In this document: in pieces, positions 11,173-56,761 of the stretch | Position numbering within the stretch: position 1 is the stretch's first letter | How the letters are laid out: every line of letters begins with the position of its first letter | Source: Paracoccus sp. MC1862 | GTDB taxonomy: Bacteria; Pseudomonadota; Alphaproteobacteria; Rhodobacterales; Rhodobacteraceae | Assembly: GCF_016617715.1 (NCBI RefSeq) | Contig: NZ_CP067225.1 | Coordinates: 248,001 to 312,000 of the forward strand | DNA: 64,000 nt | Reading direction: 5' to 3' | Made by a program: the position numbers and the translations under genes | Notes under the pieces: generated by a model | The model's input: only the letters and a program-made list of their open reading frames with translations | Told to the model about the DNA's origin: nothing | The model's database searches: none

Positions 11173-11177
11173 ACCGA

Positions 11178-15241: not shown

Positions 15242-15245
15242 CGCG

Positions 15246-17095: not shown

Positions 17096-17107
17096 CGTGG
17101 CGCCGTC

Positions 17108-18502: not shown

Positions 18503-18524
18503 CAGATGGTTCTCAGAGCCGTAA

Positions 18525-35924: not shown

Positions 35925-36427
35925 TCATTCCCGCAGCGGCCCCCCCAAGCGGTCGGCCAGCAGCGCCAGATCCACCTGCCGGTGGGTGCCGGTCTTGTTG
36001 AACAGCCGCAGCAGGTGGGTGCGGACCGTGCTGGGACGAATGCCGATCGCCTCGGCGGCGGCGCTGACGGTCATGCCCGAGGCGATATGCGAAAAGACCT
36101 GCATCTCGGCCGCGGTCAGGCCGAAGGCGCTCGCGGCCACGGCGGCTGCGCCCGAAGGCGCCCGGCAGTCCGACAGGAAAAGCGCGCAGAGCGCGCGGCT
36201 TTCCAGCCTTTGGGCACCACCGGCCGGCGTGCCGGGAAGCGCAAGGGGCATGACATGCAGCGCCGACAGGCGGCCGTCATCATGCAACACCGGGGTTCCG
36301 CTGCCGCATGCGCCGGTCCCCGCGGCAAGGCCGCAAGCGCGGTTCACCGCCTGCTGCAGCGTCCCCCGCGCCGCGGGAATGGCGAGGCGCAGCCGGCCCT
36401 GTTCGAGGCGCAGCGGATCGCCCGAAG
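35925..36427 (-). pseudogene. LuxR-type regulator, C-terminal half, split by IS256
   Basis: Carries the Lux[42 protein letters not shown] and [18 protein letters not shown] to the stop. The part before it ([18 protein letters not shown] onward) continues the N-terminal half at 37828-38490 in the correct frame once the IS256 and one copy of the 8-bp target duplication (36420-36427) are removed. The rejoined protein would be about 385 residues. Confidence 0.88.
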
Positions 36428-37827
36428 GGCCGTGCCCCTGGTGCTGGTGTAGGAGGCCGCGCGCGGAGCCCCAGCGTAGCGCAGCGCGCGGCCGGGGTGA
36501 CGCTGGCGGCCATCGCCGGTCTTCGGAGAAGGTTCGGGTTGCAAGACCTGGAACCGGAACGGAGACGACGATGACCGACAAGAGAATGGCGCTGATCGAG
36601 CTGGTTGAGAAGCGGGCCGACTGCGACCTCGTGCGCGAGATGCTGGCCTTCGCGGCCGAGCGGATCATGGATGTGGAGGTCGAGGCGCGGACGGGCGCGG
36701 CGAAGGGCGCGCGTTCGCCTCTGCGGGAAGTCCAGCGGAACGGCTACCGCAATCGCGATTGGGACACCCGCGCCGGACGGATCGCGCTGGAGATCCCGAA
36801 GCTGCGCAAGGGCAGCTACTTCCCGAGCTTCATCGAGCCGCGCCGAACGGCCGAGAAGGCGCTCGTGGCCGTCATTCAAGAAGCCTACGTCTATGGCGTC
36901 TCGACCCGGTCCGTGGACGACCTGGTCAAGGCCATGGGCGCGGGCGGCATGTCGAAGTCCCAAGTCAGCCGTCTCTGCGTCGAGATCGACGAACGCGTCA
37001 ACGCGTTCCTCTCCCGGCCCCTGGAGGGAGCTTGGCCCTACCTCTGGCTCGATGCCACCTACCTCAAGGTCCGCGAGGGCGGACGCATCGTCAGCCGTGC
37101 CGTGATAATCGCTGTCGCGGTCAACGAGGACGGCAAGCGCGAGGTTCTTGGCGTCGCCACGGGGCCTTCGGAAGCCGAGACCTTCTGGACCGACTTCCTG
37201 CGTAGCCTCGCCGACCGCGGCCTGCGCGGCGTGAAGCTGGTCATCGCCGACGACCACAAGGGCCTGCGCGCGGCAGCGCGCCGGGTGTTCAACGCCACGC
37301 ATCAAAGGTGCCGGATTCATTGGCTCCGGAACGCCCTGGCGCACGTGCCGACCAAGGGCCGCACGGCGGTTGCGGCGATGCTGAAGACGATCTTCGCGTG
37401 AGGCAGACGAAGGCGGAAGCCGAGGCTCAGTGGGACACCGTAGCCGACGCACTGCGCGAGAAGAACGAGAAGCTCGGCGCTCTCATGGACGCCTCCCGCG
37501 ACGATGTCCTGGCCTACATGTCGTTCCCGCGCGAGCACTGGGCGCAGATCGCGTCGACGAACCCACTCGAGCGGGTCAACCGCGAGGTCAAGCGGAGGTC
37601 AGATGTCATCGGGATCTTCCCCAATGACGAAGCCATCGTCCGGCTTGTCGGCGCGCTGATGCTGGAGACTAATGACGAATGGGCCGTGGCGCGGCGATAC
37701 ATGAGCCTTGAAACGCTCGCGCGCGTCACAGACAATCCCACCGTCAGGCTGCCCGCCGTGGCGTCCTGATCAGGCTCGGACCTTTCCGAAGGCCCGGCGC
37801 TCCTACACCACGCCCCGGGGCACGATC
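36428..37827 (+). mobile_element. IS256-family element with 8-bp target duplication
   Basis: 1400 bp bounded by imperfect inverted ends (GGCCGTGCCCCTGG...GGTGTAGGAG and GATCGTGCCCCGGG...GGTGTAGGAG). GCCCGAAG is duplicated at 36420-36427 and 37828-37835. It inserted into a LuxR-type gene and its transposase is frameshifted. The clear duplication indicates a recent event relative to the surrounding IS debris. Confidence 0.92.
36571..37769 (+). pseudogene. IS256-family transposase with a frameshift
   Basis: First frame (36571-37401): [53 protein letters not shown] (first Asp) and [17 protein letters not shown] (second Asp), ending [16 protein letters not shown] and a stop. A -1 shift at 37398 restores the frame: QTKAEAEAQWDTVADALRE, then FPREHWAQIASTNPLERVNR, which holds the final catalytic Glu (E in PLERVNRE). 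About 399 residues in total. The lesion would inactivate it unless recoded. Confidence 0.88.
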
Positions 37828-38490: not shown

Positions 38491-38710
38491 GGCCCCTCAG
38501 GATGCGACAGCGGGAAAATATCACGTCCAGGTTGCGCCTTCCACCGTTTGGTGGACGCAGCCGCCGCGCAACCTGACCATCCTCTGCCGTGATGGGGGCG
38601 GCGACCGTCGCAACGGACGTGCCGCCGCTGGCATCGCCGCTTCCCGCGTCGCCGCGCAACGCCCGGTGCGTTCCGGGCGGAAGGGGCGGCAGGAACGAGG
38701 GGGGCGGTCC

Positions 38711-39610
38711 TTGGCGCATCTGGCCTTGCGATTCTGCGGCGAGGAAGCCCTGCTGCGAACGGGCGCGGCAAAAGCGGGGCGGCCTGCCGCCGGCCATGAT
38801 CGCGCGGCGCTGCCCGACCTAGCCTGGCCGATCCTCGGCTGCCTGCTGGCCTCGCCCCATCATCGCGCCACGCGCGGCGGCCTGATGGCGCAGCTTTGGC
38901 CGGACCAGGACGAGGATGGCGCGCGGCACCGCTTTGCGACGGCATTGTGGCGGATCCGCTCGGCTCTGGCCGAGGCCGCGCCGATGATCGTCGCGGAAGG
39001 AGAGGTCATCGCCCTGAACCTCGACGCCCATGCCTGGGTGGACGCCGTCGCGGTCGAGCGGCGGCTGACCGCAGTCCTTGCCGCGCCGCAGCGGCTGGCG
39101 TTGCCGGGCGAGCGGCGGCGGCTTGTCCACGCGCTGGGCCAATATCGCGGCCCCTTCCTGCCCGAACGCGACCAGGAATGGATCATGCTTCAGCGGGCGC
39201 GGCTGCAAAGCCTGCATCTGGACGCGCTTTATGCCTTGACCGCGGCGGCGGCACAGGCGGGCGCCTGGTCCGAGGCGCAGGTCAGCGCCAGCCGTCTTTG
39301 CGCCGCAGAGCCGCTGCGCGAGGATGCCCAGCGCCTGCTGATGGAGGCCCATCTGCGCTGCGGCAACCGGGCGCTGGCGTTGCGGCAATACCGCCGGTGC
39401 GAGGCGATCCTGGCGCAGGAACTGGGAGTCGCCCCCATGCCCGAAACCCGGGCCTTGGCTGCGACGATCGCGGGCGAGGACCACGGGGCGGCCATTCCCG
39501 TGCTCCTGCCGGCCGTTCCTGACGACGCGACCAGCCGGGCGGCGCTGATCGACGCGCGCGACAAGGTACTGGAAACGCTGCGCATCATAGATCGCGCGCT
39601 GACCTGCTGA
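38711..39610 (+). CDS. BTAD/SARP-like transcriptional activator
   Basis: 299 residues from TTG 38711 (GAGGGGGG upstream; a GTG at 38666 is possible). The N-terminal winged-HTH region contains ATRGGLMAQLWPDQDEDGAR and RHRFATALWRIRSAL, matching the OmpR-like DNA-binding domain of SARP regulators. Residues about 130-260 form the TPR-like BTAD: RARLQSLHLDALYALTAAAA, CAAEPLREDAQRLLMEAHLR and ALRQYRRCEAILAQELGV. SARP proteins activate specialised gene clusters in actinobacteria; in alphaproteobacteria they are less studied. Its position just upstream of and collinear with the envelope-enzyme genes suggests it activates them. Confidence 0.82.
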   Translation: MAHLALRFCGEEALLRTGAAKAGRPAAGHDRAALPDLAWPILGCLLASPHHRATRGGLMAQLWPDQDEDGARHRFATALWRIRSALAEAAPMIVAEGEVIALNLDAHAWVDAVAVERRLTAVLAAPQRLALPGERRRLVHALGQYRGPFLPERDQEWIMLQRARLQSLHLDALYALTAAAAQAGAWSEAQVSASRLCAAEPLREDAQRLLMEAHLRCGNRALALRQYRRCEAILAQELGVAPMPETRALAATIAGEDHGAAIPVLLPAVPDDATSRAALIDARDKVLETLRIIDRALTC

Positions 39611-39784: not shown

Positions 39785-39943
39785 CGGACGCTGCTGCTGC
39801 GGATCTGGTCGGAACACGACGGCCGCGAGCCTGTCGTCCGGGGGACCCTCAGCGATCTTTCCGGCAAGCCGCAAGGGGCCTTCGCATCATTCCAGGCGCT
39901 TTGGGCGCTGCTTGCGCGGCTGTTGTCGCAGCCCTGCCGGTAA
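39785..39943 (+). pseudogene. Small conserved-looking reading frame without a start codon
   Basis: Encodes RTLLLRIWSEHDGREPVVRG, TLSDLSGKPQGAFASFQALW and ALLARLLSQPCR, which looks like a real short protein. The frame opens at 39734 but has no ATG, GTG or TTG before this segment. It ends 17 bases before the next gene, whose AAGGAG site overlaps its stop. Either the start is mutated or a frameshift lies upstream. Function unknown. Confidence 0.4.
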
Positions 39944-39960
39944 GGAGACGTGAGAGTCAT

Positions 39961-40531
39961 GGAAGATTTCATGCTGATGAACCAGCCGCCCCGAAACGAC
40001 CTGCAGAACCTGCGCCAGGTGGTGCAGGCGCAACTGGCTGCGATGCCGACTGCACAACTGCGCCATGTCGTGGACGGAACCTTCGGACCCGGAACCGCGG
40101 AAGGCATCGACGAGGATCTTGAGGGGATATTCGGCGACATCGGCAAGGCCCTCTCCTCGGCCGCCCGCGATGTCGGCCGCTTCGCCAGCAAGGCCGCCCC
40201 GGGCATCGCCTCTATCGGCGGCGGCGTCCTGAAGGGCGCGGCGGCGGGCTCGGCCCTTGGGCTGCCCGGCATCATCGCGGGTGCCGCAACCGGCGGCGTC
40301 GGCGCGGGGCTGAGCACCTATGGCAAGGCCGCCGCAAGGCAGGTCGGGCAGGCACTGAGCGGCGTGACCCAGCTGGCGGGCGGACTGACGCCGATGGGCC
40401 AGTTGGGCGGGACGCTCGGCTCGGCCGTCGGAAGCCTTGGCGCCCCCGCCGACCCGGCCGGCAGCCGGGGCCAGCGGGGGCGCTGGGGCAGATCGCGGGG
40501 ATGCTGGGCTCGCCACAGGCGGGAGCCTTGA
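39961..40531 (+). CDS. Gly/Ala-rich hydrophobic protein, N-terminal part
   Basis: Begins MEDFMLMNQPPRNDLQNLRQ after AAGGAGACG. Residues about 50-140 are a Gly/Ala-rich alternating hydrophobic stretch (SIGGGVLKGAAAGSALGLPG, IIAGAATGGVGAGLSTYG). This recalls glycine-zipper proteins that insert in or coat membranes. After about residue 160 the frame turns into Arg-rich nonsense. A shift of one base near 40445-40470 reaches another frame with GALGQIAGMLGS repeats. The annotated end is thus an artefact of a frameshift. Function is unknown. Confidence 0.55.
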
Positions 40532-41154
40532 TGCGCGGTGGCGGCATGGGCGGCGGTGCGCTGGGCCAGATTGCCGGGCTGCTGGGCTCGCCGCAGGCCG
40601 CCTCGGCCCTGGGGGGGCTGTTCGGCGGGGGCGGCGCGCCGGGCCAACTGGCCGCGGCGACCCGCAATCCCGACGTGCAGAAGGCGCTGGCGGCCCTGCG
40701 GCTGGGACCGCTGGGCCGACCGACCATTCCCGTGGGCGCCGCCGGATAGGCCGTCCCCACCGCCGCCTTCGCGCAACTGCTGGGCCACCTGTCGAACCGG
40801 GTGGCGGCCGAGGCGGAAGGCGCGGACGAAGCCGAGGCGCTGGGCTTCATGGCCGACGGCGAGGGCGGCTTCATCGGCGATCCGGCCAGCGCCTCGGATC
40901 GCGCCGCGCGGCTGTGGGACATGATGAACGAGGCGATGGCCGAACGGATGATCGAAACGATCAAGGCCGAGTATCTCGCCAGCGAAGGTTCCGAAGCCGA
41001 GGACGAGGGCGAGGACTGGGACGGCGAGGACATCGAGGATTGGGACGACGAGGTCGAATGGGCCGAGTTCATCGACGCGATGGACATGGCCGACCTGGCC
41101 GAGATGGACTACGCGCCCGAGCTTGATCCGATGGAGGCGCGCCATGCCTGGTGA
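40469..41154 (+). pseudogene. Continuation of the Gly/Ala-rich protein, acidic C-terminal part, with in-frame TAG
   Basis: In this frame GALGQIAGMLGSPQAGALM and the near-repeat GALGQIAGLLGSPQAASAL continue the upstream protein. A TAG at 40747-40749 interrupts PTIPVGAAG and AVPTAAFAQLLGHLSNRVAA, which read on without change of frame. The C-terminus is strongly acidic (EDEGEDWDGEDIEDWDDEVE). If the shift and the TAG are ignored the protein would be about 395 residues. A single C-to-T change from CAG would explain the stop. It overlaps the next gene by 11 bases. Confidence 0.6.
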
Positions 41155-41767
41155 GATCGAGGACATCGGGATGGCGGGCGGCGGCGATCATGGCGACGTG
41201 ACGCAGCATCCGGCCGGGCCGCATCCCCCCGACGTGACGCTGCCCGGCCTGGCGCTGCTGGACGCGATCCGCAGCAATGCCGCGGACCCGGGCCGCGCGC
41301 TTCTGGGCGCGCTGGCGGGACAAGGGGACGGCGGCAGCGGCACGGACTGGCTGATGAAGCTGATGGCCGGGCAGGACGAGGCCGAGACCGACCGCATCCG
41401 TGAGGAACTGCGCGAGGAGGTCCGGGCCGAGCAGGCCGACGCCATCGCCGAACTCGGCGACACCGCCCGCCGCCTGTTCGCCGAACGCGAGGAGGTGCGC
41501 CGCCGGCTTGAGGAGCTGGCCGCCGCGCTGGGCGCCTGTCCGCTGTGCTTTGGCGAGGATCTGCTTTGCCCGACCTGCCACGGCGCGGGCGAACCCGGCG
41601 CGCGCGCACCCGATCCTGTCGCGTTCCCTCGCTTCGTCGTGCCGGCGCTCGATCGCGCGCGCGCGGTCATGCGCCGCACGGCTGCGCGCCGGCCGTGGCC
41701 GCAGCCGACCCCGAGGCCGCCGTCCTTCGACCCGGCCACGGTCAACAGAGGAGGAACCGCATCATGA
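41144..41767 (+). CDS. Coiled-coil protein with a zinc-ribbon-like Cys cluster
   Basis: 207 residues from the ATG at 41144 (GGAGG upstream). Residues about 75-120 are a charged helix (ETDRIREELREEVRAEQADA, EEVRRRLEELAAALG) likely to form a coiled coil. Immediately after, CPLCFGEDLLCPTCHGAG supplies two CxxC pairs, a compact zinc knuckle like the DnaJ-type. The tail is Pro/Arg-rich. No signal peptide is seen. It overlaps both neighbours (11 bases before, 4 after), so it belongs to one translationally coupled unit. No known family is recognised. Confidence 0.65.
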   Translation: MPGEIEDIGMAGGGDHGDVTQHPAGPHPPDVTLPGLALLDAIRSNAADPGRALLGALAGQGDGGSGTDWLMKLMAGQDEAETDRIREELREEVRAEQADAIAELGDTARRLFAEREEVRRRLEELAAALGACPLCFGEDLLCPTCHGAGEPGARAPDPVAFPRFVVPALDRARAVMRRTAARRPWPQPTPRPPSFDPATVNRGGTAS

Positions 41768-42372
41768 CTTATCCCTATGCTGACACCGAGGATCTGGATT
41801 TCGCCGAAGGCGAGTCTTGGGCCGGCGAGAACTGGCCCGGCGAAAACTGGGACAACTATTTCGAGGCCGAGAACTGGGAAGCCGCCCGCCGCCGGCGCGG
41901 CAGACCCCAGCGGCCCGTGCCCACCGCCAAGGGCGCCAATGCGTTCCGCGGCCGAGGCCCGAGTTCTGGCCCCGTGACGCAGGCGCAGCTTGCCGCCTCG
42001 CTGGCGCAGGTCCGGCAGGAGATGCAGGCCAATGCCACCGGCATCAAGACGCTGGACGGGCGCGTGCGGGCCGCCACGGCCAGCCAGCAGCGGTTCGAAA
42101 CCGTCACCCGCAGGCAGGTGGACAAGCTGCGGTCGGATCTGAAGACCACGCAGACGCTGTCGGCGCTGATCCCGCTGCTGACCAGCGGAACCCAGTTCGA
42201 GAAGGTCGCCCCGCTGATCCACCTGGTCAGTCCCGACCTCGCGAGCGGGACCACCGCCACCGCGGCCGGCCCCGGCTCGTCGCCGGGCGGGCTGCTGGGC
42301 AACACCAACAATCTAATCGCCATCGGTGGGCTGCTTTATGCCACCGGCACCTTCGACAAGTCCAAGAAGTGA
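41764..42372 (+). CDS. Acidic/aromatic N-terminus, coiled-coil protein of unknown function
   Basis: 202 residues with GAGGAGG before the start. The N-terminus is acidic and aromatic (TEDLDFAEGESWAGENWPGE, then NWDNYFEAENWE), followed by a basic RRRRGRPQRP patch. A helical region AQLAASLAQVRQEMQANATG to LRSDLKTTQTLSALIPLL resembles a trimeric stalk or coiled coil. It ends with a short hydrophobic segment (NNLIAIGGLLYATG). No signal peptide. Similar acidic Trp/Phe-rich tails recur in neighbouring proteins. The function is unknown. Confidence 0.6.
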   Translation: MTYPYADTEDLDFAEGESWAGENWPGENWDNYFEAENWEAARRRRGRPQRPVPTAKGANAFRGRGPSSGPVTQAQLAASLAQVRQEMQANATGIKTLDGRVRAATASQQRFETVTRRQVDKLRSDLKTTQTLSALIPLLTSGTQFEKVAPLIHLVSPDLASGTTATAAGPGSSPGGLLGNTNNLIAIGGLLYATGTFDKSKK

Positions 42373-42381
42373 GGGGCGGTG

Positions 42382-42990
42382 ATGGCAAACTACAATCCCC
42401 TGTTCGCCGGCTACATCACCAAGGAGGGCGGGCTGCCGGTGGACGAATGCATCGCCCTGACCGCCGCGGCCATGGTCATCCAGGGTCCGCTGGCGCTTGC
42501 CCCCGCGCTGGTGGCGGTCCAGCGCCACCGCGACATGGACAGATTGGACGGGTCCGGTTCGGACGGCTCGGGCGAGGTGACCGGGCCGGTGGGGCCGCCG
42601 CTCGTGGACGTGCCGGACCTTATCGGCCAGCCCCTCGACGACGTGCGCCGCCGGCTCAAGGAGCTGGGGCTGGTGCCCGATGTGTCCTTGCATGAGAGCG
42701 CCGACGACGAGAAGGGCATGGTCCTCGACCAGCCCCCGCCGCCGTCGGTGGGCGACATGGTGGACACCGGAACCATGATCGCCCTGAAGGTTGGCGCGGG
42801 CCAGCCGAAGCGCAACGAGACTCCGGGCGACGACGCCGCCGCGATCGCCGATCTGCGGCGCGACGTCGATGAGCGGCTTGGCAAGATCGAGCAGTCCATC
42901 GCCAAGCTGACGGAGATGGTGGCCAAGGCCGCCGCCTCGGTCGCACCGCCCACCGCGCAGGCCGGCGACAAGAAACAGGCGGGCGGCTAG
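42382..42990 (+). CDS. Small PASTA-domain protein
   Basis: 202 residues from ATG 42382 (GAGGGG upstream; a GTG one codon earlier is possible). Residues about 74-140 form a PASTA domain: VPDLIGQPLDDVRRRLKELG, LVPDVSLHESADD and VLDQPPPPSVGDMVDTGTMI. PASTA domains bind peptidoglycan or beta-lactams. A short helix-rich N-terminus (LTAAAMVIQGPLALAPALVA) precedes it, and a coiled coil (RRDVDERLGKIEQSIAKLTE) follows. No kinase or transpeptidase is attached. In this cluster it probably supplies wall affinity. Confidence 0.75.
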   Translation: MANYNPLFAGYITKEGGLPVDECIALTAAAMVIQGPLALAPALVAVQRHRDMDRLDGSGSDGSGEVTGPVGPPLVDVPDLIGQPLDDVRRRLKELGLVPDVSLHESADDEKGMVLDQPPPPSVGDMVDTGTMIALKVGAGQPKRNETPGDDAAAIADLRRDVDERLGKIEQSIAKLTEMVAKAAASVAPPTAQAGDKKQAGG

Positions 42991-43095
42991 GCGCCGCCGC
43001 CATCGACGGGACGCGTGCGGCTGACCTCTGCGCGCGTCCCGCGACCCGAGATTCACCCGCGTTCGCAAGGATGCGCCCGATGGAAAGGGGCCGCC

Positions 43096-43803
43096 GTGGA
43101 AAGCGCGTTGCACGAGCTTATCGCCGAGGGGCAGCCGGGCGACGAGGTTTCGGCGATCGCCCGCCTGCGCCCGGACGGGCTGATCCCGCCCGAGATGCGG
43201 GTGATCGCGCGCTTCGGCCGGATCGTCACCTTCCGCGCCCCCCGTGCCGCGATCGAGCGGATCTATCCGCTGATGGAAAGCATCAAGCGCCCGCAGCAAT
43301 ACACCATCACCTTGGAGGACGAGGGCGAAGACGGGACCGGGGCCGACCCGGACGGGAACGGGCGCGACGAACTCGTTTCCATCAGGCATGGCGCCAGCGG
43401 GGACGAGGACGCCGCCCTCGACGGGAGGCCGATGCCGGGCGACGGGCGGCGTGCGCCCGGCTGGCCCACCGGCAAGGGGGTGATCGTGGCCCATCTCGAC
43501 TGGGGTCTCGACTTCACCCATCCCGTCTTCCGCAACCCCGACGGCAGCACCCGGCTGCTGGCGCTGTGGGATCAGGGCGCGGCCTATGACCCCGCCCGGC
43601 CCAACCGCTACGGCATCGGCCGCATCCACGACCGCGACCGGATCAACAGTGCGCTGCGCCGCGATGACCCCTTCGCCGCCTTCGGCTATCGCTGGTGGAT
43701 GTCGGACCGCAAGGCCGGCAGTCATGGCACCCACACGCTGGGCATCTCGGCCGGCGGCATGGTCGAGGGGGCGAGCCGGGCAGGGCGCCCGAGGCCGACC
43801 TGA
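43096..43803 (+). pseudogene. Subtilisin-family (S8) serine protease, N-terminal part
   Basis: From GTG 43096 (GAAAGGGG upstream) the frame gives 235 residues. It contains the catalytic Asp135 in GVIVAHLDWGLDFTHP and His210 in GSHGTHTLGISAGG. After GGMVEGAS the frame runs off to a stop at 43803. A one-base shift in the G-rich stretch 43767-43785 restores homology as RAPEADLIFVDLTTR. The catalytic Ser lies in the other frame, so no active enzyme is made without correction or recoding. No signal peptide is seen. Confidence 0.85.
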
Positions 43804-46082
43804 TCTTCGTGGACCTGACGACCCGCACCCCGGAAGGACCGAGGCCGCTGGGCGATTCCACCGACCTGATCGAGGGCTGCGATTTGATCCTGAGGGTGGC
43901 GGGGGACCGGCGGCTGGTCATCAACGCCAGCCTTGGCCGGCAGGCGAGCCAGCACGACGGGCTGACCCTGACCGAACAGGCCTTCGACGCCATGCTGGCC
44001 GCGCGTCCGGGCCGCGCCATGACCATGAGCTGCGGCAACTACTACGCCCGCGCCGCCCATGCCCAGACCACCCTGGACCCCGGCGAGCAGCATGACTTCG
44101 CGCTGGAACTCGCCCCCGGCGACCGCCGCAGCGAGGTGGACCTGTGGTATCCCCGCGCCGACCGGCTGTCGCTGTCGCTGTCGGTGCGGGGGCCGGGCGG
44201 CATCCACGCCGGGCCGGTGGCCGGGGGCGGCAAGGCCGACGTGCTGCTGGAGGGGCGGGTGGTGGCGCGGCTTTACAACCGCCGCGACGATCCCAACAAC
44301 GGCGACTCGCAAGGCTCGCTGTTCCTGCACGGCGATGCACCGGCCGGCGCCTGGACGCTGACGGTTCATGGGGAAGCCGTCGGAGACGGTCGCCTGCACG
44401 CCTGGGTGGAACGCGACCCCGCCGGGCCGGGCCGGCTGCGCTTTGCGGCGGATGATGCCGACCCGACCTGCACCGTGGGCACCATCTGCAACGGCTTCCG
44501 CACGATCGCGGTCGCGGCCTACGACGCGCATTCGACGGCGCGTGGACCCGGCCGGTTTTCCAGTGCCGGGCCGACGCGCGACGGGCGCACCAACCGCCCC
44601 GGCATCGGCGCGCCGGGGGTGCGGGTGCTCAGCACCCGCTCGACCCCGCGCGACCGCAGCCCGGCGCCGCGCTACAGCCGGATGTCGGGGACCAGCATGG
44701 CGGCACCTTATGTGGCGGGCACCATCGCGCTGATGTTCGCCGCCGCACGCCGCCCGCTGACCATCGACGAAACCCGCGACGCCCTGTTCGCCAGCGTCGA
44801 GCCGGTGCCAGACGCGCTGCGCCTGCGCTTTGGCGCGGGCTTCTGCGCCCCGGCCGCGGCGATTGCGCGGGCCGCCGCCATCCACGGACCGCCCGCCGCG
44901 GCCCCCGCCATCCCGACGGAGCCGCGCAGGCTGGTTCCGATCACCGACAGGGAGGAGATCACCATGGACGAGTTCGAGGACGACACCGACCAGACCGACG
45001 AAGCCTTCGATTGCGACGCCGATTCCGACGCCGAGCAGCAGGCCGCCGACGAGGCCGCCTCTGCGCCGCTGTACGAGGGCTTCGAGGAAACCATCCTGCC
45101 GGTGATGGAGGGAGAGGAGGAGGGCGAGGAGGGGGCGGAGGAGGATCCCGGCGCCGAATGGCAGCCCGAGGCGCAGGGCCGACGCCAGCGCAGCGGCTTT
45201 GGGGGCGGATTGTCGTTCCAGTTCCAGATCCCCCTCGGCGGAAGTGGCGGCCTTGGCCTTGGGATATCGATCGGCGCCCGGTCCAGCCCCTTTGCGCTCA
45301 GCGTGCCGCTGTCCTCGCCTGCTGCACCGAAGCCTTATCCACCCGCGCCTTACCCGGCGCAGCCTTATCCGGCCCCGCCTTACGCCGCGCAGCCCTATGC
45401 CGCACAGCCCATCGCGCCTGTCATGCCGGGCGAGCCGCCCGTGACCACCGCGCTCGACCTGCCGCCCGAGCCGGGCGATGTCGCCGCCGCCGCGCAGGCC
45501 GCCGCCGATGCGGGCGAGTTCGACCTGGCCGAGAACGAGACCTGCCCCGACTGCGCCGCCCGCGAAACCGAGGATCAGGCCGCGCTGACCGAGGCGCTTG
45601 CGCTCGACACCCTAGAACGCAGCTTCATGCCGGCGGACGCGGGCGAATGTGACGGCCGCTACGCCACCGAACGGATGATGGCCGAGGTCGCCTGCGCCGC
45701 CCGCTTCGGGTCGTCGGCCGAGATGCTTTCGGCCTTGGGCGAGGCCTTGGGTGACGGCGAAGCCGACGACAGCCCGACCCTGATCGCGCTGTTTCACGCA
45801 CTTGCCGACCGCAACCTGCCCCAGCCGCGGTTGTTCGGCCGCAGCGTCCGCGTCCTGCTGCGGCCGGGGCAGCCCGTGGGCGATGTCGCGCCCCGGCGCG
45901 GGGATATGCTGCTTCGGGCGCTTCCGGGGGCAGGGTTGGGTGCAGGCGTCCTTCGTGGCATCGGACCGCCTTGTGGCCGGCGCGGATGCCGCGGCGCTGG
46001 GCTTCCGGGCCGAGACCGACCCGTTGCCAACGACCGGAGGCTTCGTCCATGTGGCGGAACTGTGGCCGGTCCGACGCGCTGA
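43785..46082 (+). pseudogene. S8 protease C-terminal part running into an acidic/proline-rich protein
   Basis: Continues the protease: APEADLIFVDL, an inserted beta-domain (DPNNGDSQGSLFLHGDAPAG, as in CspB-like S8 members), and the catalytic Ser in MSGTSMAAPYVAGTIALM. After the protease ends (about 44900) the frame reads on without a stop into MDEFEDDTDQTDEAFDCDAD, a Glu-rich stretch and Pro/Tyr repeats (KPYPPAPYPAQPYPAPPYAA). A GGAGGAG site and ATG at 44951-44966 suggest a separate gene starts there. A five-G run at 45926-45930 contains another frameshift; beyond it the frame is spurious to the stop at 46082. Confidence 0.75.
44951..44966 (+). promoter_or_regulatory. Strong internal ribosome site and ATG after the S8 domain
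   Basis: GGAGGAG, seven bases, then ATG at 44964, exactly where the acidic protein begins. It is one of the best Shine-Dalgarno matches in this cluster, so translation of the multidomain protein can start independently of the protease. Confidence 0.6.
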
Positions 46083-47049
46083 AGAGGACCGATTCCTGCG
46101 CCGCCTTTCCACCGGCGCGGGCCTGACTGCCCCCGACACCCTGCTGCTGCGTCTGGGCGTAGGCGACGCCGCCGAAACCTTTGGCGAAGACGAGCAGGAC
46201 GCCGGGCTGGCGCCGGGCGCGTCCGGCCCTTCGGTGGCCGAGCTGCGACGGCGGCTGAACCTGCTGCACGCGCGGCGGACGACGCAGGGCCTTGCAGGCC
46301 TGCCCGACATGCCGCTGGCAGAGGATGGACGCTACGGTCCCCGCCTGCGCGCCGCCCTCGCGGCACTGCAGCGCATGGCCCCCGCTGGGCTGGTGCGCGC
46401 CATCGACGGGATCGCCGGGCCCGCCACGCTGAAGGCACTTGCGCTGCTGGAGGCGTCGCTGGCGCTCGTCTCGCCCTCGGCCCCGCCGACCCCACCAGTC
46501 CAGCCCACGTCCGGCGGCATCGCCGCGGGCGAGCTGGTCGAGGACCGGCTGCCGCTTCTTGCCAATCACCGTGGCACCCGTCCCGACCTGGTCCTGCGCT
46601 GGAACGCCATGCCGTCCGCGCCCGAACGCGTGGATATGGTGGTTCACCTGCACGGCTTTTGTGGTCGTCGGGCCGCCATGCGGATCGACCGGGACAAGCT
46701 GCCGGCAAGCGGCCTCGATTTCGCCGACCCGGACGCGCCGGGCAGCGTCGGGCGCAGCCGGCCGACGCTGGCGATCCTGCCGCGCGGCAACTTCTATGGC
46801 GGGCGCAGCGGCAGCGGCTATGACTTTCCCGCGCTGCTGGCGCCGGGCGCCTTGGAGCAACTGATCCGGCAGTCGCTGGCGCTGTTCGCCCGCGCGGGCG
46901 GGCTGGCGCCGGTCGCGGCGGGGCGGTTGGTCCTGACCGCCCATTCCGGCGGCGGCGCGCCTCTGATGCGGCTGCTTGCGGACCACGACCCCGACGAGGT
47001 GCATTGTTTCGATGCCCTTTACGGCGATCCTGCCGCGCTGATCCGCTAG
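45931..47049 (+). pseudogene. Multidomain envelope protein, middle: peptidoglycan-binding and alpha/beta hydrolase domains
   Basis: Continues from the acidic part once one G of the run at 45926-45930 is skipped: GWVQASFVASDRLVAGADAA. A peptidoglycan-binding (PG_binding_1) domain follows: PSVAELRRRLNLLHARR to AIDGIAGPATLKALALLEAS. Then comes an alpha/beta hydrolase: HLHGFCGRRAAM, nucleophile elbow LTAHSGGGAPLM and an acid near HCFDALYGD. A TAG at 47047 interrupts between AALIR and AESRLRG, and the same frame continues beyond with the likely His in QAHNDIPRHYGW. The hydrolase is thus split by the stop. Confidence 0.7.
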
Positions 47050-49287
47050 GCCGAATCCAGGCTGCGCGGTCCGGCCGCCGGCGGGGGCGCGCTGCGCGTC
47101 CTTTACCGCGCGGGCGAGGGCACCGCCTCCCACAGCCAGGCCGTCGCGCGGGCGCTGGCGCCGCTGACGTCCTCGGACCCTGGCCTCGCCCGCCGCTATC
47201 GAGCCGATGCCGTGCCGCAGGCGCATAACGACATTCCCCGGCACTATGGCTGGCGGCTGCTGGCGGATGCCGGGGCCGCCATCGCCCCGGCGACCCGGCG
47301 GCGCGCGGCCTTGGGGGAATCCGACGAAGGCCGCTTCCCTGACATTGCCGAGCAGGCGGCGCCCGCCGGCGGCCTCGACCAGCCGCGCATCGACCTGCTC
47401 GCCTCGCGCGAGTTCGGCAATGCCGCCGAGTTGCAGGCGTGGTTTGCCGCCGAAGGAGGCTTTGCCGACTGGTTCAACCGCAATCTGGCCGGGCAGGGGC
47501 CGTTCAACCGCCCCGGCCGGGGCGGCGCATTGAGGATGCCGACCGGCGCCGCGCCCCGCGCCCGCTTCGACGCCTTCTGGGACCGGCTGTCCCGGGCTTA
47601 CGGGCAGGACCGCATCAGCCTGCTGGATTTCGCGGCGCTGATGGCCATCGTCCTCAACGAGACGGACGGCGACTTTGCCGGGCGGACGGAATCCAGCGGC
47701 AGGGGAGGGGCCGGGCGCAGCGACGCGCGGGGCCCGCACCGGGGCCTTGCCTATTTCTTCGACCGGATCGAGCTGCATCCGGGCCATTTCAAGGCCAGCT
47801 ACAACCATCTGAGCGGCGGGCGCACCGCAGGCTCGCTGTTCGACGATCCGCTGTATATCCGCGCCCATGGCAGCCTAGGCGGGGCCGACCGTCTTGCCGG
47901 GCAGGGCGGGGGCTTCGGCGGCGCGTGGCACGGGCACTATTACCCGCAAGACCAGGTTTCGACCGACGAGCGCGAGGCCGCCACCGCCTTCATCTGCGAG
48001 ACCGATTTCCACAAGTTCCGCGGCCGGGCGGTGATCCAGACGACCGGGCGGGCCAGCTATCTGCGGCACGTGGGGTTCGTGCAGGGCTATAACGGCGGCG
48101 ACCCGGCGATCCTCGCGCTGCGGCAGGCCTGGTCCGGGATGTCGGCGGACCAAGCCTGCACTATCAGCACCAACGACCAATGGGAGCGGTGGTTCGCGCT
48201 GCCCGACACGCTGGCGCTGGGCCTGCGCTTTCACGCCGGGCCGCGCGGCTATCAGCACATAGCGCGTTCGGCCGAGGCGCTGAACGCGCTGCCACCGGCC
48301 AAAGGCCGCCCGCCGAACGGGGCGATCGCCACGATGGGTCAGCGGATCAGCGGCAGCCGCGCCTATGGGGCGGGGATCTACCGCGACCGGGTGTTGGCGC
48401 TGATGGAGGCGATGGCGGCGCTGGCTGCGCCCGCGCGCCGCCCGCCGCAGGAGCCCGCGCGCCGTCCCTCGCCGCCTCCTTCCCCTCATCCGCCTCCCCC
48501 TCGCCCCGGGCAGGAGCTGGAGCATCGGCAGAACCGTCGCACTCCCGACCGGCCGCAGGGGGGCTCTCCTGCGCCTTCGCCGGTGCCACCGCCCGACGCG
48601 GGGGCTGCCCGCGCCCAATGGGACGCCAACCCCCGCACGCATGGCTACTTCAACAATAGCTTCGACACCTATCTGGGCTTCGTCCCGGCCTTTTCCGCGC
48701 GGGGCGTGGGCGATGCGGCGGGATACCTTGCCCGGAACATGACCCGGCTGACCTTCTTCGGGCGGCGGCAGGACGGGCACCGCGACCTTGCCGCACCGCT
48801 GGCGGCGGCCGAGGCGGCGCTGGCGGGCCGCAGCCTCGATCCGCCGGTCACCAGCTTCGGCTGCCTCAACGTGCGGTTCATCGCGGGCACGCGACGGCTC
48901 AGCTTTCACGGGCTGGGGCGTGCTGTGGACCTGAACCCGCGGGCGAACCCCCATGTGAAGCAGGCGGCCGATTTCCTGGTGATCCAGGCGGTGACCGGCG
49001 CCGACCTGCGGCGCGAAACCGATCCCGTGCGGCTGCGCGACCTCAGCGCGCAGTTCCAGCGCGGCTTCACCCCGGAATGGCAGGCAGCGCAGACCGACCG
49101 GGCCGTCGCACGGGCGCTTGCCGACCACGATACCCGCACCCGGCTGGAGGGCTATGCCCGCCGCGGCTTCTGCACGCTGGACCCCGCGCTGGTCGGGGCG
49201 CTGATGGCCGCGGGCCTGCGCTGGGGCGACAGCTGGTCCAGCAGCAAGGATTTCATGCATTTCGAACTGCCCGCCGGCACGGCGTGA
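47050..49287 (+). CDS. Multidomain envelope protein, C-terminal part: GH19-like glycosidase and M15 peptidase
   Basis: In the same frame as the preceding part after the TAG; the first internal ATG-like start is a GTG-class codon near 47212. Residues complete the alpha/beta hydrolase, then a GH19-like domain with MAIVLNETDGDFAGRT (probable catalytic Glu) and KFRGRAVIQTTGRASYL, the motif shared by chitinases and lysozyme-like endolysins. After a Pro-rich linker a metallopeptidase M15 domain shows SFHGLGRAVDLNPRANP (His and Asp ligands) and KDFMHFELP (His ligand), as in D-Ala-D-Ala carboxypeptidases and phage endolysins. It would cut both glycan and peptide of peptidoglycan. No signal peptide. 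Confidence 0.72.
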   Translation, partial: AESRLRGPAAGGGALRVLYRAGEGTASHSQAVARALAPLTSSDPGLARRYRADAVPQAHNDIPRHYGWRLLADAGAAIAPATRRRAALGESDEGRFPDIAEQAAPAGGLDQPRIDLLASREFGNAAELQAWFAAEGGFADWFNRNLAGQGPFNRPGRGGALRMPTGAAPRARFDAFWDRLSRAYGQDRISLLDFAALMAIVLNETDGDFAGRTESSGRGGAGRSDARGPHRGLAYFFDRIELHPGHFKASYNHLSGGRTAGSLFDDPLYIRAHGSLGGADRLAGQGGGFGGAWHGHYYPQDQVSTDEREAATAFICETDFHKFRGRAVIQTTGRASYLRHVGFVQGYNGGDPAILALRQAWSGMSADQACTISTNDQWERWFALPDTLALGLRFHAGPRGYQHIARSAEALNALPPAKGRPPNGAIATMGQRISGSRAYGAGIYRDRVLALMEAMAALAAPARRPPQEPARRPSPPPSPHPPPPRPGQELEHRQNRRTPDRPQGGSPAPSPVPPPDAGAARAQWDANPRTHGYFNNSFDTYLGFVPAFSARGVGDAAGYLARNMTRLTFFGRRQDGHRDLAAPLAAAEAALAGRSLDPPVTSFGCLNVRFIAGTRRLSFHGLGRAVDLNPRANPHVKQAADFLVIQAVTGADLRRETDPVRLRDLSAQFQRGFTPEWQAAQTDRAVARALADHDTRTRLEGYARRGFCTLDPALVGALMAAGLRWGDSWSSSKDFMHFELPAGTA

Positions 49288-49297
49288 GGGGGAGGCG

Positions 49298-50940
49298 ATG
49301 ATGGAACAGCAGCAGCTTTCCTGGGCGGGTCCACTGGCCGGAACGGCCGAGGCGGGGCCTGCCGATGTCGAGACCGTGGCCCAGCCCGAGCTTGCGCCCC
49401 CGCATGGCGCTGCAGGCGCCAGCACCATCCGCTGGTTGCAGGCAGCGCTGAACCGCGTCGGCAATGCCGGTCTCGCCGAGAATGGTGTGGCAGGACGGGC
49501 CACGTGCGAGGCCGTGCGCGGCTTCCAGGCGGCGCAGGGGCTGGCGGCGGACGGCGTGGCCGGGCCGCGCACGATGGCCGCCCTGCGCGCGGCGCTGGAG
49601 GATGGGGGCGGCGCGGCGGCACTGGCCGGGGACCGCGCCGCCTGCGCGGGTCTTCCTCAACGGCAGGTGCTGGACCGCTTCGCCTTCGGCCAGCCAGGCG
49701 TGCCGCCGATCCACCAGCCGCGCATCGACGCCATCGCGGCCTGCCTGCTGGCGAGCCTTGACAGTCCGACGCCGATGGACGGCCTTTCGCTGATCGGCCA
49801 TACCGACCCGGTCGGCAGCGAGGCCGACAACCTCGCGCTGGGCCAGCGGCGGGCCGAAGCGGTGGCCGCGGCCATCGAGGCAAGCCTGCGGCGGCGGGCG
49901 GGAGGCCGGCCCTTCAGCTTCGTCTTCACCCCAAGCAGCCGCGGCGAAACCGAGCCGCTGGCCGATCCCGCCAGCAGCCGCCGGGTCGAGGTCGTGGCGC
50001 CCTTCGCCTTCCCGAAAATCGGCCCCCGCCCCGAACCGACGCCGCCGGTTCCGCCTGTGCCACCCTTCCGCTCGGACCTCGATCCGCCGCGCTGGGGGCC
50101 GATCCTTTCCCGCGTCATCGGTCCCCGCGCCACGATCCGCAGCGGCAATGCCGTGCGCCACCTGGTCGATGCCGAGAATCCCGGCGCGCCCGCGCTCGCC
50201 GGCTATCCGGCGATGGTGGACGCGATCCGCGGGGCGAGCGGCGGCGAGGCGTTCATCTACCTGCTCGGCTGGATCTGCGTGGACGACTTTCCGATGATAA
50301 CCTGCGATGCCAGCAGCAAGCTGCGCGTCCTGCTGGCCGACGCCGCCGCGCGCGGGGTGCAGGTCCGCGCCGTCTTCTGGGAGGCCCCCATCATCTACCT
50401 GACCCAGCGGCGCCAGACGCAGGCCTCGGCGGACCGCATCAACGCGCTTCCCGGCGGCGGCGCGATCATCGACGGCGAAACGCTGCGGAGCGGCGCGCAC
50501 CACCAGAAGCTGCTGGTCGTGGGCGACGGCCGGGGACTGGTGGGCTTCACCGGCGGGCTGGACGTCAACCCCGACCGGATCCTGCCCTCGACCATCACCT
50601 GTCCGCCCGTGCCGGTGGGCCGCGGCACGATCCTCGCCCGCGAGGACGAGACGGAGGTCTGGGACGGGGCGATCCCCGAGGCCGGCGGGGCGGTCTGGCC
50701 GGACGACTGGCCCGGCAACCCGCCGAACGTGGAAAGCATGAGCGGGGGCGGCGGAAGTCCCCTGCACGACGTCCACTGCCGGGTCGAGGGACCGGCCGCC
50801 TTCGACCTGCTGGGCACCTTCATCACCCGCTGGGACCATCACCCCGGCAGCCGCCGGATCGAGGCGCGCGCGCCCCTGCGCGGCCGCCGCGCGGCGGTGC
50901 CCGCGCCCCTGACCCGGCCGCTGCCGCCCGGCATCAGCAG
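49298..50940 (+). pseudogene. Peptidoglycan-binding/OmpA/phospholipase D fusion, N-terminal part
   Basis: Starts MMEQQQLSWAGPLAGTAEAG after GGGGGAGG. Domains in order: PG_binding_1 (about 40-105; ASTIRWLQAALNRVG, GLAADGVAGPRTMAAL), an OmpA-like wall-binding domain (about 120-245; LIGHTDPVGSEADNLALGQR and RRAEAVAAAI), a Pro linker, then a phospholipase D domain from about 290. Its first HKD region is HHQKLLVVGDGRGLVGFTGG; the Asp is one residue further than in the canonical HxKx4D. Near 50935-50941 the frame shifts by one base; the original frame runs to a spurious stop at 51091. The second HKD lies in the next entry. Confidence 0.8.
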
Positions 50941-51702
50941 CACGGGCGAAACCTGCTCGGCCTGGTCGGGCGCACGTTCAACCCGCGCTGCGGCTCGGGC
51001 TTGCCGCGCGAGCGGGACATCCGCGCGATGCTGCTGGCCGGGATCGCCAACGCGCGCCGCTTCATCTACATGGAGGACCAGTACCTGCTGAACCTCGAGG
51101 CCGCCCGCGCGCTGCCGCGGATTGCCCATCTGACGATCGTGATCGCCGCTTCGGACGTCAACGGCGACACCCCCTGCATCTGGACCTACCGGCGCGAGTT
51201 CGTCACCGTCCTGACCCGCGGCCTGACGCCGGACCTTGCCGCCAAGGTCCGCATCTTCCAGCTGGTCACGCCGCCGGTCCCGCCGGTGGCGCCGCCATGC
51301 TCGACCAAGCGCAAGGTGTTCCGCCCGACCTTCGGCCGCCACACCTATGTCCACGCCAAGGCCTGGGTGTTCGACGACGAGCTGGCGGTGATCGGCTCGG
51401 CGAACTGCAACCGCCGCGGCTGGGAACACGACTCAGAGCTGAACGCCTTCGTCTTCGACGACCGCGTGCCGGTGACGGCGGCGACCCGCAGCTTCGCCCA
51501 GCAGACGCGGATGAGCCTCTGGTCCGAGCACCTGACCCTGCCCGAGGCGCGGCTGGCAGACGGCGTCGCCAGCGCCTCGGCCTGGCTGCGGCCGCCGACG
51601 ACCGCCCGCGTGCTGCCCTACTGCCCGGGGGACGACACCGACATCGCTGAGTTCAAATGCCCCCTTATCAAGGACAGCATTGTCGATCCCCCGGTAACGT
51701 GA
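50941..51702 (+). pseudogene. Phospholipase D domain, C-terminal part (second HKD)
   Basis: After the frameshift HGRNLLGLVGRTFNPRCGS and LPRERDIRAMLLAGIANARR resume the domain, then FIYMEDQYLLN and the second HKD motif TYVHAKAWVFDDELAVIGSA, followed by NCNRRGWEHDSELNAFVFD. This half alone cannot act, since PLD needs both motifs. An ATG-less stretch precedes 51001; an independent start is unlikely. It is the last gene of the envelope-enzyme train; AT-richer sequence follows. Confidence 0.82.
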
Positions 51703-52154: not shown

Positions 52155-53480
52155 CTTCCGCAGGAACTGGTCCGCCCCCTGGAAAGTGGTCCTCCCTGAA
52201 GCAGGCTTTCGAGCCGGATGGAGGCCGGCGGAATGTCGCGGAAGAAGCACGAACCCGAGGAGATCGTGGCCAGGCTCCGGCAGGTCGGCGTGTTGGTGTC
52301 GCGGGGCCGGTCGGTGGCCGGGGCGGTGCGCTCGATCGGCGTGACGCAGTTGACCTGCTCCCGGTGGCGCAAGGAGTTCGGCGGGCTGCAGGGCGATCGG
52401 GTCAAACGCCTGAAGGAGCGGGAGAAGGAGAACGGGCGGCTGCGGAAGGCCGTCTCCGGCCTGACGCCGGAGAAGCTGATCCTGCGTGGTGAGGCCTGTG
52501 GCCGAACGCCTCGGGCAACTTCCAGGCCCCGCGCGTCGCCGTGCCTGCATCGGGCAGGTCCGGCAGGAGTTCCGTGTCTCGGCGCGCCTCGCCTGCCGCG
52601 TGCCCGGCCCGCCTCGCTCGACCCGAGCCGGAAGGTGCCGCGCGGACGGGCCGATGAAGAGGCGCTGACTGCCGGCATCGTTGCGCTTGCCGCCCGGCAG
52701 GGGCGCTGCGGCCAGCGGCGGATCCCGGCCCTGCTCGGGCATGCCGGCCGGACGGGGAACGTGACGCGCGGCGCGGGGGCGAGGCCTGCGTCGACGGCGG
52801 CGGGAGGGGCTGACGGCGCCTGCGCCGCAACCGGGGAAGGCGCGGCTCCGGCGCGACGACGGATCGTGCCTCCGTCTGCGGCCAGCGCGTCCAGACCACG
52901 TCCGGTCTTGCGACTTCGTCGCGGCCCGGACCCATGACGGCGGGAAGTTCCGCATGCGCGACCTGATCGGCGGGTTCGCCCGGGAATCCCTGGCGCTCCG
53001 GCTCAGCCGCAAGCCGAACGCGCCGGCTGTCATCGACGTGCTGCCGGACCGGTTCCTCCTCCGCGGCGTGCCCGGCCCTGTCCGGCCGGACAACGGCCCG
53101 GCGTTCGTGGCCACCGCGCTGCGCGACCGGATCGCCGCGGCCGGCGCCGGAACGGCCTCTGTCGAGCCTGGATCCCCCGGGGAGGGAGGAGGATCAGGAA
53201 ACGGTCCGGGGGACTGTGTGCCCGACGACGGGCCGCTGCGAGAGCTTCACCGCCAAGCTGCGCGACGAGCGGCTCACCGGCGACATCCTCTGCAGCCTCG
53301 CCGCGGCGAAGATCGTCCTCGCGGCGTGGCGCCGCCCTTGCACCACAAAGCGCCCGCATTCCTCCCCGGGCGAGCGGCCCCCCGCTCCCGAGGTCCCGCA
53401 GGGACCGCCTTCGCCACCCGGAGCATGGCGCCAGGACCCGTCATGCACCAAGATCGGAAAGGGACCACCCCAGCGGGGCT
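52155..53480 (+). mobile_element. Heavily decayed IS3-family element
   Basis: OrfA starts at 52233: MSRKKHEPEEIVARLRQVGV, RSVAGAVRSIGVTQLTCSRW and LKEREKENGRLRKAVSGLT. OrfB is scattered over frames: LTAGIVALAARQGRCGQRRI, VLPDRFLLRGVPGPVRPDNG and LREL-type ends, with several frameshifts. Conserved Tyr/Lys/Asn positions are often replaced by Arg, Ala or Gly through GC-raising changes. It has a terminal-repeat-like GGTCCGCCCCCTGGAAAG near 52170. It is inactive. Confidence 0.8.
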
Positions 53481-53937: not shown

Positions 53938-54720
53938 ATGATCCGAGCGCTTCTCGCCACGACCATCGCCCTCGTTGCCACGTGGCACTCAGACACCCTG
54001 GTTCGTGCTCATGTCGCTGAGACCCATGACCGGCAGCCGCCTTCCTCCACCAAGGCGCACCGATTCCCAACATCGTTCGACCTCACACGTCTCGCAGTCA
54101 TGGATGCGCAGCCCCTGATCTCGCTGGATCGCTTCACATCCTCGGCCACTGCACTCAGGCAGCCCAGCCCTGTACCCACGCCTCCGGATCTGACGCTTGA
54201 GGCCGCCCCTGCTCCTGTGCCGCGTCCCCTCAGGGTTATCGTGTCTCGCCCGCTCCCTCGTCCTGCCATGCCCGAGCAAATCCTGGAGGGCGCAAGTATC
54301 CCCCTGCCACCGGCCTCTCTACGCAATGCGAGCGATCTCTCCTGCATCGCCGTGGCGATCTATCATGAGGCACGTGATCAGGAGGACTTCGGCCAGCGCG
54401 CTGTCGCTTCGGTGATCCTTCAGCGCGTTGCAGTCCCGCACCGTTGGGGCGGCACGGCCTGCGACAACGTTGTCCCAACGCAGTTCAGCTTCCTGACCTC
54501 ACGCTATGATTACCCGCCGATCGACGACATGAAGGCGTGGGAGAAGGCGGTGCGCTTCGCCGCCCATGCCTTGCTTGAAGGCCCCATGCCTGAACTCAAG
54601 GGTGCTGATCACTACCACACCACGGCCGTATCGCCCCCATGGGCGCCGAGAATGGCCCGAGTTCGGCTGATTGACGATCACGTCTTCTACGTTGATCCTC
54701 GCTCTTCCTTATCCCTGTAG
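53938..54720 (+). CDS. SleB/CwlJ-type cell wall hydrolase
   Basis: 260 residues with an N-terminal signal-like segment (MIRALLATTIALVATWHS) and a Pro-rich linker. The C-terminal half is a Hydrolase_2 domain: CIAVAIYHEARDQEDFGQRA (catalytic Glu in YHEAR), VASVILQRVAVPHRWGG, QFSFL and GADHYHTTAVSPPWAPRMA. SleB-type enzymes are lytic transglycosylase-like or amidase enzymes for peptidoglycan; in alphaproteobacteria they serve wall remodelling rather than spore germination. GAAGGAG lies upstream. It is separated from the envelope-enzyme train by IS debris and appears independent, with lower GC in its coding sequence than its neighbours. Confidence 0.82.
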   Translation: MIRALLATTIALVATWHSDTLVRAHVAETHDRQPPSSTKAHRFPTSFDLTRLAVMDAQPLISLDRFTSSATALRQPSPVPTPPDLTLEAAPAPVPRPLRVIVSRPLPRPAMPEQILEGASIPLPPASLRNASDLSCIAVAIYHEARDQEDFGQRAVASVILQRVAVPHRWGGTACDNVVPTQFSFLTSRYDYPPIDDMKAWEKAVRFAAHALLEGPMPELKGADHYHTTAVSPPWAPRMARVRLIDDHVFYVDPRSSLSL

Positions 54721-56692: not shown

Positions 56693-56761
56693 GCTGGTAA
56701 CCCATTTACCTCTTGAGAAGCGAATGCCGTCGAGGATCAACGGATAAAGGAATGATGGCAC

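Follow-up and report, generated by a model that had tools for sequence, protein, structure and literature searches.

In the clostridial germination protease CspB an inhibiting prodomain is retained and a jellyroll of ~130 residues is inserted in the subtilase, and cleavage of the wall hydrolase SleC requires CspB activity (PMC3567191). Subtilisin, PGB1 and OmpA domains have been reported in toxins delivered by Photorhabdus virulence cassettes (PVC) (PMC3482391), BTAD is a shell domain of extracellular contractile injection system (eCIS) loci (PMC8213781), and conflict systems also use effectors that cut peptidoglycan (PG) (PMC7159879). We report here on a stretch of 64,000 nucleotides from Paracoccus sp. 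MC1862 (contig NZ_CP067225.1, positions 248,001 to 312,000; hereafter the window), which carries, on the + strand between 38.7 and 51.7 kb, an island made of a BTAD regulator gene, four small genes (genes 1 to 4), a protease/lytic-enzyme gene and a gene for a PG-binding/OmpA/phospholipase D (PLD) protein. A first, sequence-only reading had seen there an arsenal of envelope-degrading enzymes matching no named system, and indeed no description of this gene set was found in the literature searched. The best-supported reading of the comparisons below is that of a mobile island, in which a constant core would be combined with a cargo that varies, is mostly envelope-degrading and has a Csp-like protease at its head.

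A homologous locus with intact frames was found in Microvirga sp. BT688 (locus L004), the one locus obtained from 56 pattern matches in a scan of genome contigs. A BTAD regulator gene on the opposite strand is followed there by gene 1 (376 amino acids, aa), gene 2 with a Cys cluster, gene 3 (acidic coil), gene 4 (PASTA), a single chain of 2063 aa comprising S8 protease, PG-binding, hydrolase-like, GH19-like and M15 modules, a PG-binding/OmpA/PLD protein of 767 aa, and lastly a 512-aa protein with an M23 domain at its start. The subtilisin and the PG-binding/hydrolase/GH19/M15 protein, which had been taken for two genes in the window, are therefore pieces of one frame-broken chain. S8 and M15_4 were on one chain in 28 of the 36 relatives retrieved with residues 560-1320 of the Microvirga chain (precomputed Pfam list), the named sources being Inquilinus limosus, Inquilinus sp., Sphingomonas qomolangmaensis, S. 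jaspsi and an Allosphingosinicella assembly. As this search scored the best 8000 word-sharing candidates and admitted chains of 0.55 to 1.75 times the query length, split or broken relatives are under-counted. Carriers known as proteins only are S. jaspsi, S. qomolangmaensis, I. limosus, Paraburkholderia hospita and Ramlibacter.

An S8 match to the chain query was present in 40 plasmid records, and eight of these loci were read. The whole set was found on three of the eight plasmids, from Cupriavidus oxalaticus (L006), Gemmatirosa kalamazoonensis (L009) and Streptomyces canus NBC_01002 (L007). Together with the window and Microvirga, this makes five loci, three of them on plasmids, belonging to the Alphaproteobacteria, Betaproteobacteria, Gemmatimonadota and Streptomyces. 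The order gene 1, gene 2, gene 3, fourth small gene, S8 is kept in all five, with gene 1 only 33% (Cupriavidus), 30% (Gemmatirosa) and 28% (Streptomyces) identical to its Microvirga counterpart. Since the order recurs in four loci besides the window, it is conserved far more than expected by chance. Conserved synteny with intact frames in several genera, which had been set beforehand as the test of the idea, was thus found in four distant lineages. The gene 1-4 set was not seen, by eye, in the other five plasmid S8 loci, from Rhizobium, Agrobacterium and Sinorhizobium (read with translations of the neighbours), Sphingobium and Acaryochloris (annotation table only).

Control by a SARP-like (Streptomyces antibiotic regulatory protein) regulator, as proposed by the sequence-only reading, holds for three of the five loci. 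A BTAD regulator adjoins the set in the window, Microvirga (34% identity between the two proteins) and Streptomyces; in Cupriavidus and Gemmatirosa the nearby open reading frames (ORFs) look AraC- and LuxR-like, judged by eye only. BTAD was above the Pfam cut-off in all three, consistent with SARP regulators; the winged helix was below cut-off (E 0.095 in the window, 2e-5 in Microvirga, none reported in Streptomyces), and so was the AfsR match of the Microvirga protein relative to its curated cut-off (E 2e-16).

Linkage of the genes in the protein match lists was estimated by a proxy, namely identical sizes of source contigs (longest contig per protein cluster, the contigs themselves being unread) across the lists for gene 1, gene 3 and the S8 chain. 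Seventeen of 28 gene-3 contig sizes (at least 5 kb) equalled a gene-1 size, 10 equalled an S8-chain size, and 7 were common to all three lists; near-coincidences, off by 1-2 bases only, did not occur between gene-1 and gene-3 sizes. Over the 17 shared sizes, the gene-1 and gene-3 identity matrices were correlated (r 0.77; none of 9999 permutations reached this value).

The set is rare. A gene 3 or gene 1 query matched its own genome only, in samples of relatives (1/101), of the class (1/385), of the genus (1/125) and of the phylum (1/398). Among 249 Microvirga relatives, one strong match (the locus described above) and two weak ones (E 2e-4 and 5e-4) were obtained, and the Streptomyces gene 1 had itself as sole match in the plasmid records. 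These samples overlap, and as only part of the first-look candidates was scored per genome, weak relatives may be missed. Being rare, scattered and accompanied by transposases, the island behaves like a mobile accessory island.

In the window, the island and its immediate neighbours are arranged as follows.

35986..37401, + strand: Mutator-family transposase ORF, upstream neighbour (Pfam Transposase_mut, E 3e-90)
38666..39610, + strand: BTAD (SARP-like) regulator (Pfam BTAD, E 1e-26; for Trans_reg_C only the sub-threshold value given above)
39950..40531, + strand: gene 1, Gly-zipper protein with acidic tail, N-terminal piece (64% identity to Microvirga gene 1, up to ~40477 in one frame)
40468..41154, + strand: gene 1, C-terminal piece in another frame (in-frame TAG at 40747-40749)
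41123..41767, + strand: gene 2, Cys-cluster coiled-coil protein, open frame (43% identity to the Microvirga ORF; motif ALGACxxCxGxxxxCxxCxGxG)
41764..42372, + strand: gene 3, acidic/aromatic coil protein of 202 aa, open frame (database homologs)
42379..42990, + strand: gene 4, PASTA protein with a hydrophobic N-terminal stretch, open frame (Pfam PASTA, E 3.5e-10)
43096..43803, + strand: S8/lytic chain, piece 1, prodomain and start of the subtilase (tblastn, frame 1)
43767..45935, + strand: S8/lytic chain, piece 2, remaining subtilase, acidic and Pro-rich linker (tblastn, frame 3; Peptidase_S8, E 5e-18, in ORF piece 43695-46079)
45928..47049, + strand: S8/lytic chain, piece 3, PG_binding_1 (E 6e-6) and hydrolase-like module, ending at an in-frame TAG (tblastn)
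47050..49287, + strand: S8/lytic chain, piece 4, end of the hydrolase-like module, GH19-like module and M15 (M15_4, E 2e-12; tblastn, same frame across the TAG)
49298..50959, + strand: PG-binding/OmpA/PLD protein, N-terminal piece (PG_binding_1, E 6e-14; OmpA, E 3e-6; tblastn, frame 2)
50854..51702, + strand: PG-binding/OmpA/PLD protein, C-terminal piece with PLD motif (PLDc_2, E 2e-8; tblastn, frame 1)
52218..52937, + strand: transposase-like ORF, downstream neighbour (HTH_Tnp_1, E 9e-7)

The one-way, overlapping arrangement reported earlier is confirmed: all genes are on the + strand and closely packed, with a 4 nt overlap between genes 2 and 3. GC content is 72.4% from 39.7 to 51.7 kb, and 66.1% in the window outside 38-54 kb. 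Just 3′ of the island lies a SleB-like cell wall hydrolase ORF (53938-54720; Hydrolase_2, E 7e-13). Further on, six degenerate 56-nt repeats (55424-55960) are found partly inside a minus-strand ORF (55640-56761), whose translation resembles, by eye, RTX calcium-binding repeats.

Breaks in the window copy were located by tblastn against the intact Microvirga proteins. Four frame changes and two in-frame TAG codons hit gene 1 (frame change near 40.47 kb, and the TAG listed above), the S8/lytic chain (frame changes near 43.78 and 45.93 kb, TAG at 47047-47049) and the PLD protein (frame change between 50.85 and 50.96 kb); genes 2, 3 and 4 are open frames. The list of separate proteins given by the sequence-only reading therefore consists of real genes, and is partly a product of frame breaks. 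An intact database relative of 2047 aa (P0181) is 77-80% identical to three of the window chain pieces. Runs of five G are present at three of the four frame breaks, so that sequencing slips are possible for these three. The TAG codons are not of the slip type and the genome is 99.05% complete, which disfavours an assembly error as the cause of all breaks; elsewhere in the window, a script listed 24 non-overlapping ORFs of at least 300 aa, each a candidate for an intact gene. For these reasons we read the island copy of the Paracoccus genome as probably decayed, and do not retain the earlier view of this copy as a working arsenal.

Pfam matches confirmed the BTAD, PASTA, subtilase, PG_binding_1, M15, OmpA and PLD domains recognised earlier. 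For the PLD protein, phospholipase D matches were obtained with the plant alpha enzyme (6kz8, E 2e-15) and with 7v53 (E 3e-10). All 28 aligned chains have the putative catalytic residues of the hydrolase-like, GH19-like and M15 modules; for the first two modules, the residues are those which we take to be catalytic from their motifs, and neither module reached a Pfam model in protein P0053.

The enzymes attached to the protease change from one relative to another. Homologous S8 heads are 39-53% identical and their tails differ: the S8 head is followed by M74, lipase-like, VanY and M15_3 modules in P0191, by PLD in P0193, by M15 in P0189 and by two PG-binding domains in Cupriavidus. P0187, lacking S8, holds the hydrolase-like, GH19-like and M15 modules. 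The source contigs of P0193, P0187 and the gene-1 protein P0119 are all 508456 in size. As P0193 pairs S8 with PLD and P0187 holds the S8-less hydrolases, the pairing of the modules is the reverse of that in the window. Gene 1 also occurs a second time in Cupriavidus, as a short copy, and the protein encoded after it lacks S8; over its residues 5-253, this protein shares 71% identity with the tail of the local S8 protein, and it resembles an orphan cassette. A SIR2-like gene (Pfam SIR2_2, E 2e-19; L006 14591-15640) adjoins the Cupriavidus locus. On the Rhizobium (L019 6419-10638) and Agrobacterium (L020 6440-10557) plasmids, an S8 protease, an 85-aa ORF and a PLD-like protein are found without genes 1-4, the 85-aa ORF of L019 resembling an S8 prodomain by eye. 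In Sinorhizobium (L022 6758-10203), a gene annotated as a metallo-beta-lactamase (MBL)-fold hydrolase comes after the S8 gene.

Among solved structures, the S8 domain comes closest to CspB and other germination proteases (4i0w, E 2e-25; 9pr8, E 3e-24; residues 101-523), and the S8 protein scored 96 bits with the NCBIfam CspBA model, whose cut-off is 1250 bits. All 17 aligned S8 domains, including three from rhizobial loci without the gene set, have the catalytic Asp, His, Asn and Ser; in the chain alignment, Asp and His are found in 27 of 28 rows, one being gapped. The distance from His to Ser is 322 residues (311 in CspB), a spacing that fits an inserted domain. From position and spacing, we infer that the S8 protein has a prodomain and an inserted jellyroll.

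None of the libraries searched yielded a functionally characterised relative of genes 1 to 3. These genes gave no PHROG or NCBIfam match and reached no Pfam cut-off, the window pieces of genes 1 and 3 having sub-threshold Pfam matches only (GP67, DUF1641, DUF2681, Lebercilin) and Microvirga genes 1 and 2 none; the PDB search gave E 0.036 at best for gene 1 and no match for gene 3. The Cys motif of gene 2 is common to the window and the four other loci, and gene 3 has 51 database proteins at E <= 1e-3, itself included (alignment A1). The fourth small gene encodes PASTA in three of the five loci (window, Microvirga, Cupriavidus), and no PASTA was found by the Pfam scan in Gemmatirosa and Streptomyces. 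A crude hydrophobicity scan found a hydrophobic Gly-rich segment in gene 1. Acidic stretches are pronounced in Microvirga, with net charges per 30 residues of -15 at the end of gene 1, -13 at the start of gene 3 and -15 in the chain linker, the other window ORFs (n=41) reaching at most -11; Streptomyces and Gemmatirosa counterparts are milder (-8 to -14).

We propose, with a probability of about one half, that this is a rare, horizontally moved conflict island in which the protease cuts and activates the envelope hydrolases attached to it. At the level of sequence comparison, the gene order, the module exchange, the conservation of putative catalytic residues and the Csp likeness of the protease are established. 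The activation model comes from the analogy with CspB acting on pro-SleC. The regulator (BTAD in three of the five loci) would turn on the four small proteins and the Csp-like S8 protease heading interchangeable enzymes; as in CspB and pro-SleC, a prodomain might hold the protease until a signal arrives; the protease would then cut its own chain at the acidic and Pro-rich linkers, and the freed PG-binding hydrolases, together with the PLD protein, could open a cell envelope. Lysis would be the outcome, presumably to be used against other cells. Several observations weigh against this proposal. The GH19 reading is weak (no Pfam match, best PDB match an endolysin at E 0.003), and the alpha/beta hydrolase reading is weak as well (motifs only, with neither a Pfam match nor a significant PDB match). 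Two cargoes are not clearly envelope-degrading: the Gemmatirosa S8 chain (L009 9959-16729) has a sub-threshold beta-lactamase-fold match (E 0.006), and in Streptomyces S8 is followed by an M4 protease encoded separately. No immunity gene was recognised among the Pfam/NCBIfam matches of the scanned proteins, the only place where it was looked for. Finally, the intact-locus proteins showed no obvious signal peptide in the crude hydrophobicity scan, which leaves export unexplained. In a bolder version, which seems to us doubtful, genes 1-4 would provide the structure of an undescribed delivery particle or secretion apparatus that has no relation to phage tails, occurs in all four lineages and carries self-cutting, protease-headed chains to other cells.

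A link to phages or contractile systems was considered. Gene 1 had no match in 50,697 phage records, and the S8 chains matched six of them, in the S8 part only and at 22-30% identity. No relative of gene 3, alignment A1, gene 1 or the S8 chain was found in viral contigs (exact peptide patterns, of limited reach), and the PHROG matches, from the only one of these phage comparisons that covered gene 2, gene 4 and the PLD protein, concerned enzyme domains only. A phage origin was rejected on these grounds, the S8 matches being generic. No tail, capsid, sheath, tube, baseplate or ATPase gene was recognised by Pfam among the island proteins, and the Microvirga genome has no match to the sheath family PF04984 (matched in 3 of 14 control genomes) or to the tube family PF06841 (matched in 0 of 14 controls, and in the Paracoccus genome). 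The island thus needs no contractile system in Microvirga, and, in agreement with the sequence-only reading, is by its location not a known phage, tailocin or eCIS cluster. No sheath or tube match was found on the Cupriavidus, Streptomyces and Gemmatirosa plasmids, the search covering plasmids only. Loading of the enzymes as effectors into an eCIS, or into some other known secretion machine with its genes elsewhere in the genome, would agree with BTAD being an eCIS shell domain, with the domains of PVC-delivered toxins, and with the sheath and tube families present in Paracoccus on another contig, C3 (66.7 kb). We nevertheless judge it improbable as a rival delivery route, and rejected eCIS as the home of the island: besides the intact Microvirga island, 15 island-type query proteins gave no tblastn match over the last 46.7 of the 66.7 kb of C3, and the eCIS toxin marker peptidase is absent from the Pfam matches of the scanned island-type proteins. 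The C3 locus itself (L024, C3:36001-56000, ~8300-19200) is eCIS-like or tailocin-like, with sheath, T4 gp19 tube, baseplate hub, Baseplate_J and Tail_P2_I, and a PAAR match below cut-off. It includes a 387-aa PASTA protein, rejected as an island-eCIS link since it has, by eye, a membrane segment and no island-type query matches that stretch.

The conflict-island proposal has other competitors, of which programmed self-lysis or abortive infection is, although unlikely, the one we take most seriously. The proteins would then be cytosolic, as the lack of obvious signal peptides suggests; the Gly-zipper protein, with its hydrophobic segment, would open the cell's own membrane and the protease would free wall enzymes, for defence or the release of goods. 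The SIR2-like neighbour in Cupriavidus, PG-cutting effectors in known conflict systems (PMC7159879) and PADLOC matches (subtilase, PD-T4-6 through the PASTA of gene 4, DrmC through PLD) are in line with this. However, the PADLOC matches reflect shared domains only and leave out genes 1-3 (none for genes 1 and 3, a weak AbiEi match at E 0.005 for gene 2), no NTPase or sensor was recognised in the set, and PG-binding, OmpA and PASTA domains suit extracytosolic work. The Csp-like protease and SleC-like PG-binding domains would also fit a developmental remodelling of the wall, akin to germination, in cysts or resting cells. A core developmental set is not expected to be so rare and scattered, plasmid-borne in three of five loci and changing in cargo, and in our judgement remodelling has no need of a phospholipase D; we hold this explanation for improbable too. 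As to a mere assembly of unrelated genes by transposons, suggested by the transposase ORFs on both flanks, it is largely refuted by the gene order, kept in five loci despite 28-33% identity of gene 1 between Microvirga and the three non-alphaproteobacterial loci, and the correlated gene-1 and gene-3 trees and the same modules fused in other combinations also speak against it.

If the conflict-island proposal is true, a Csp-type protease has been coupled to enzyme chains acting on walls and membranes and has reached several phyla together with uncharacterised helper proteins, three of whose families lie below every Pfam, NCBIfam and PHROG cut-off; this would be a lytic system outside phage lysis, the type VI secretion system (T6SS) and eCIS. 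The intact loci of named strains, Microvirga sp. BT688 and Streptomyces canus NBC_01002, make the protease-activation idea directly testable.

Compared with described systems, the island shares with eCIS a BTAD regulator, which may neighbour eCIS, and enzymes without obvious signal peptides (PMC8213781); it differs by its lack of recognised sheath, tube, baseplate and ATPase, and by a carrier, Microvirga, without sheath or tube match. With the peptidase-NucA conflict system 3, it has in common proteases, S8 included, together with PG-cutting effectors in alphaproteobacteria, as described in PMC7159879, whereas no NucA nuclease or EAD1 domain is among the island Pfam matches. The PLD module matches phospholipase D proteins (6kz8, 7v53) in sequence and differs from them in being fused to PG-binding and OmpA domains. 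The likeness to polymorphic toxin systems (PMC3482391) is broader: a constant S8 head with exchangeable C-terminal effector enzymes, an orphan cassette (Cupriavidus), and subtilisin with PG-binding domains. Differences are that no known export, leader or delivery domain is among the Pfam/NCBIfam matches of the scanned proteins, that no immunity gene was recognised, and that genes 1-3 are outside library families. The closest comparison by sequence of the subtilase is with clostridial CspB and pro-SleC (PMC3567191), where a protease is likewise found beside wall hydrolases with PG-binding domains. In the island, where cleavage is only putative, protease and hydrolases are fused in one chain, in lineages that do not form spores, and lipases or PLD and four small proteins are added.

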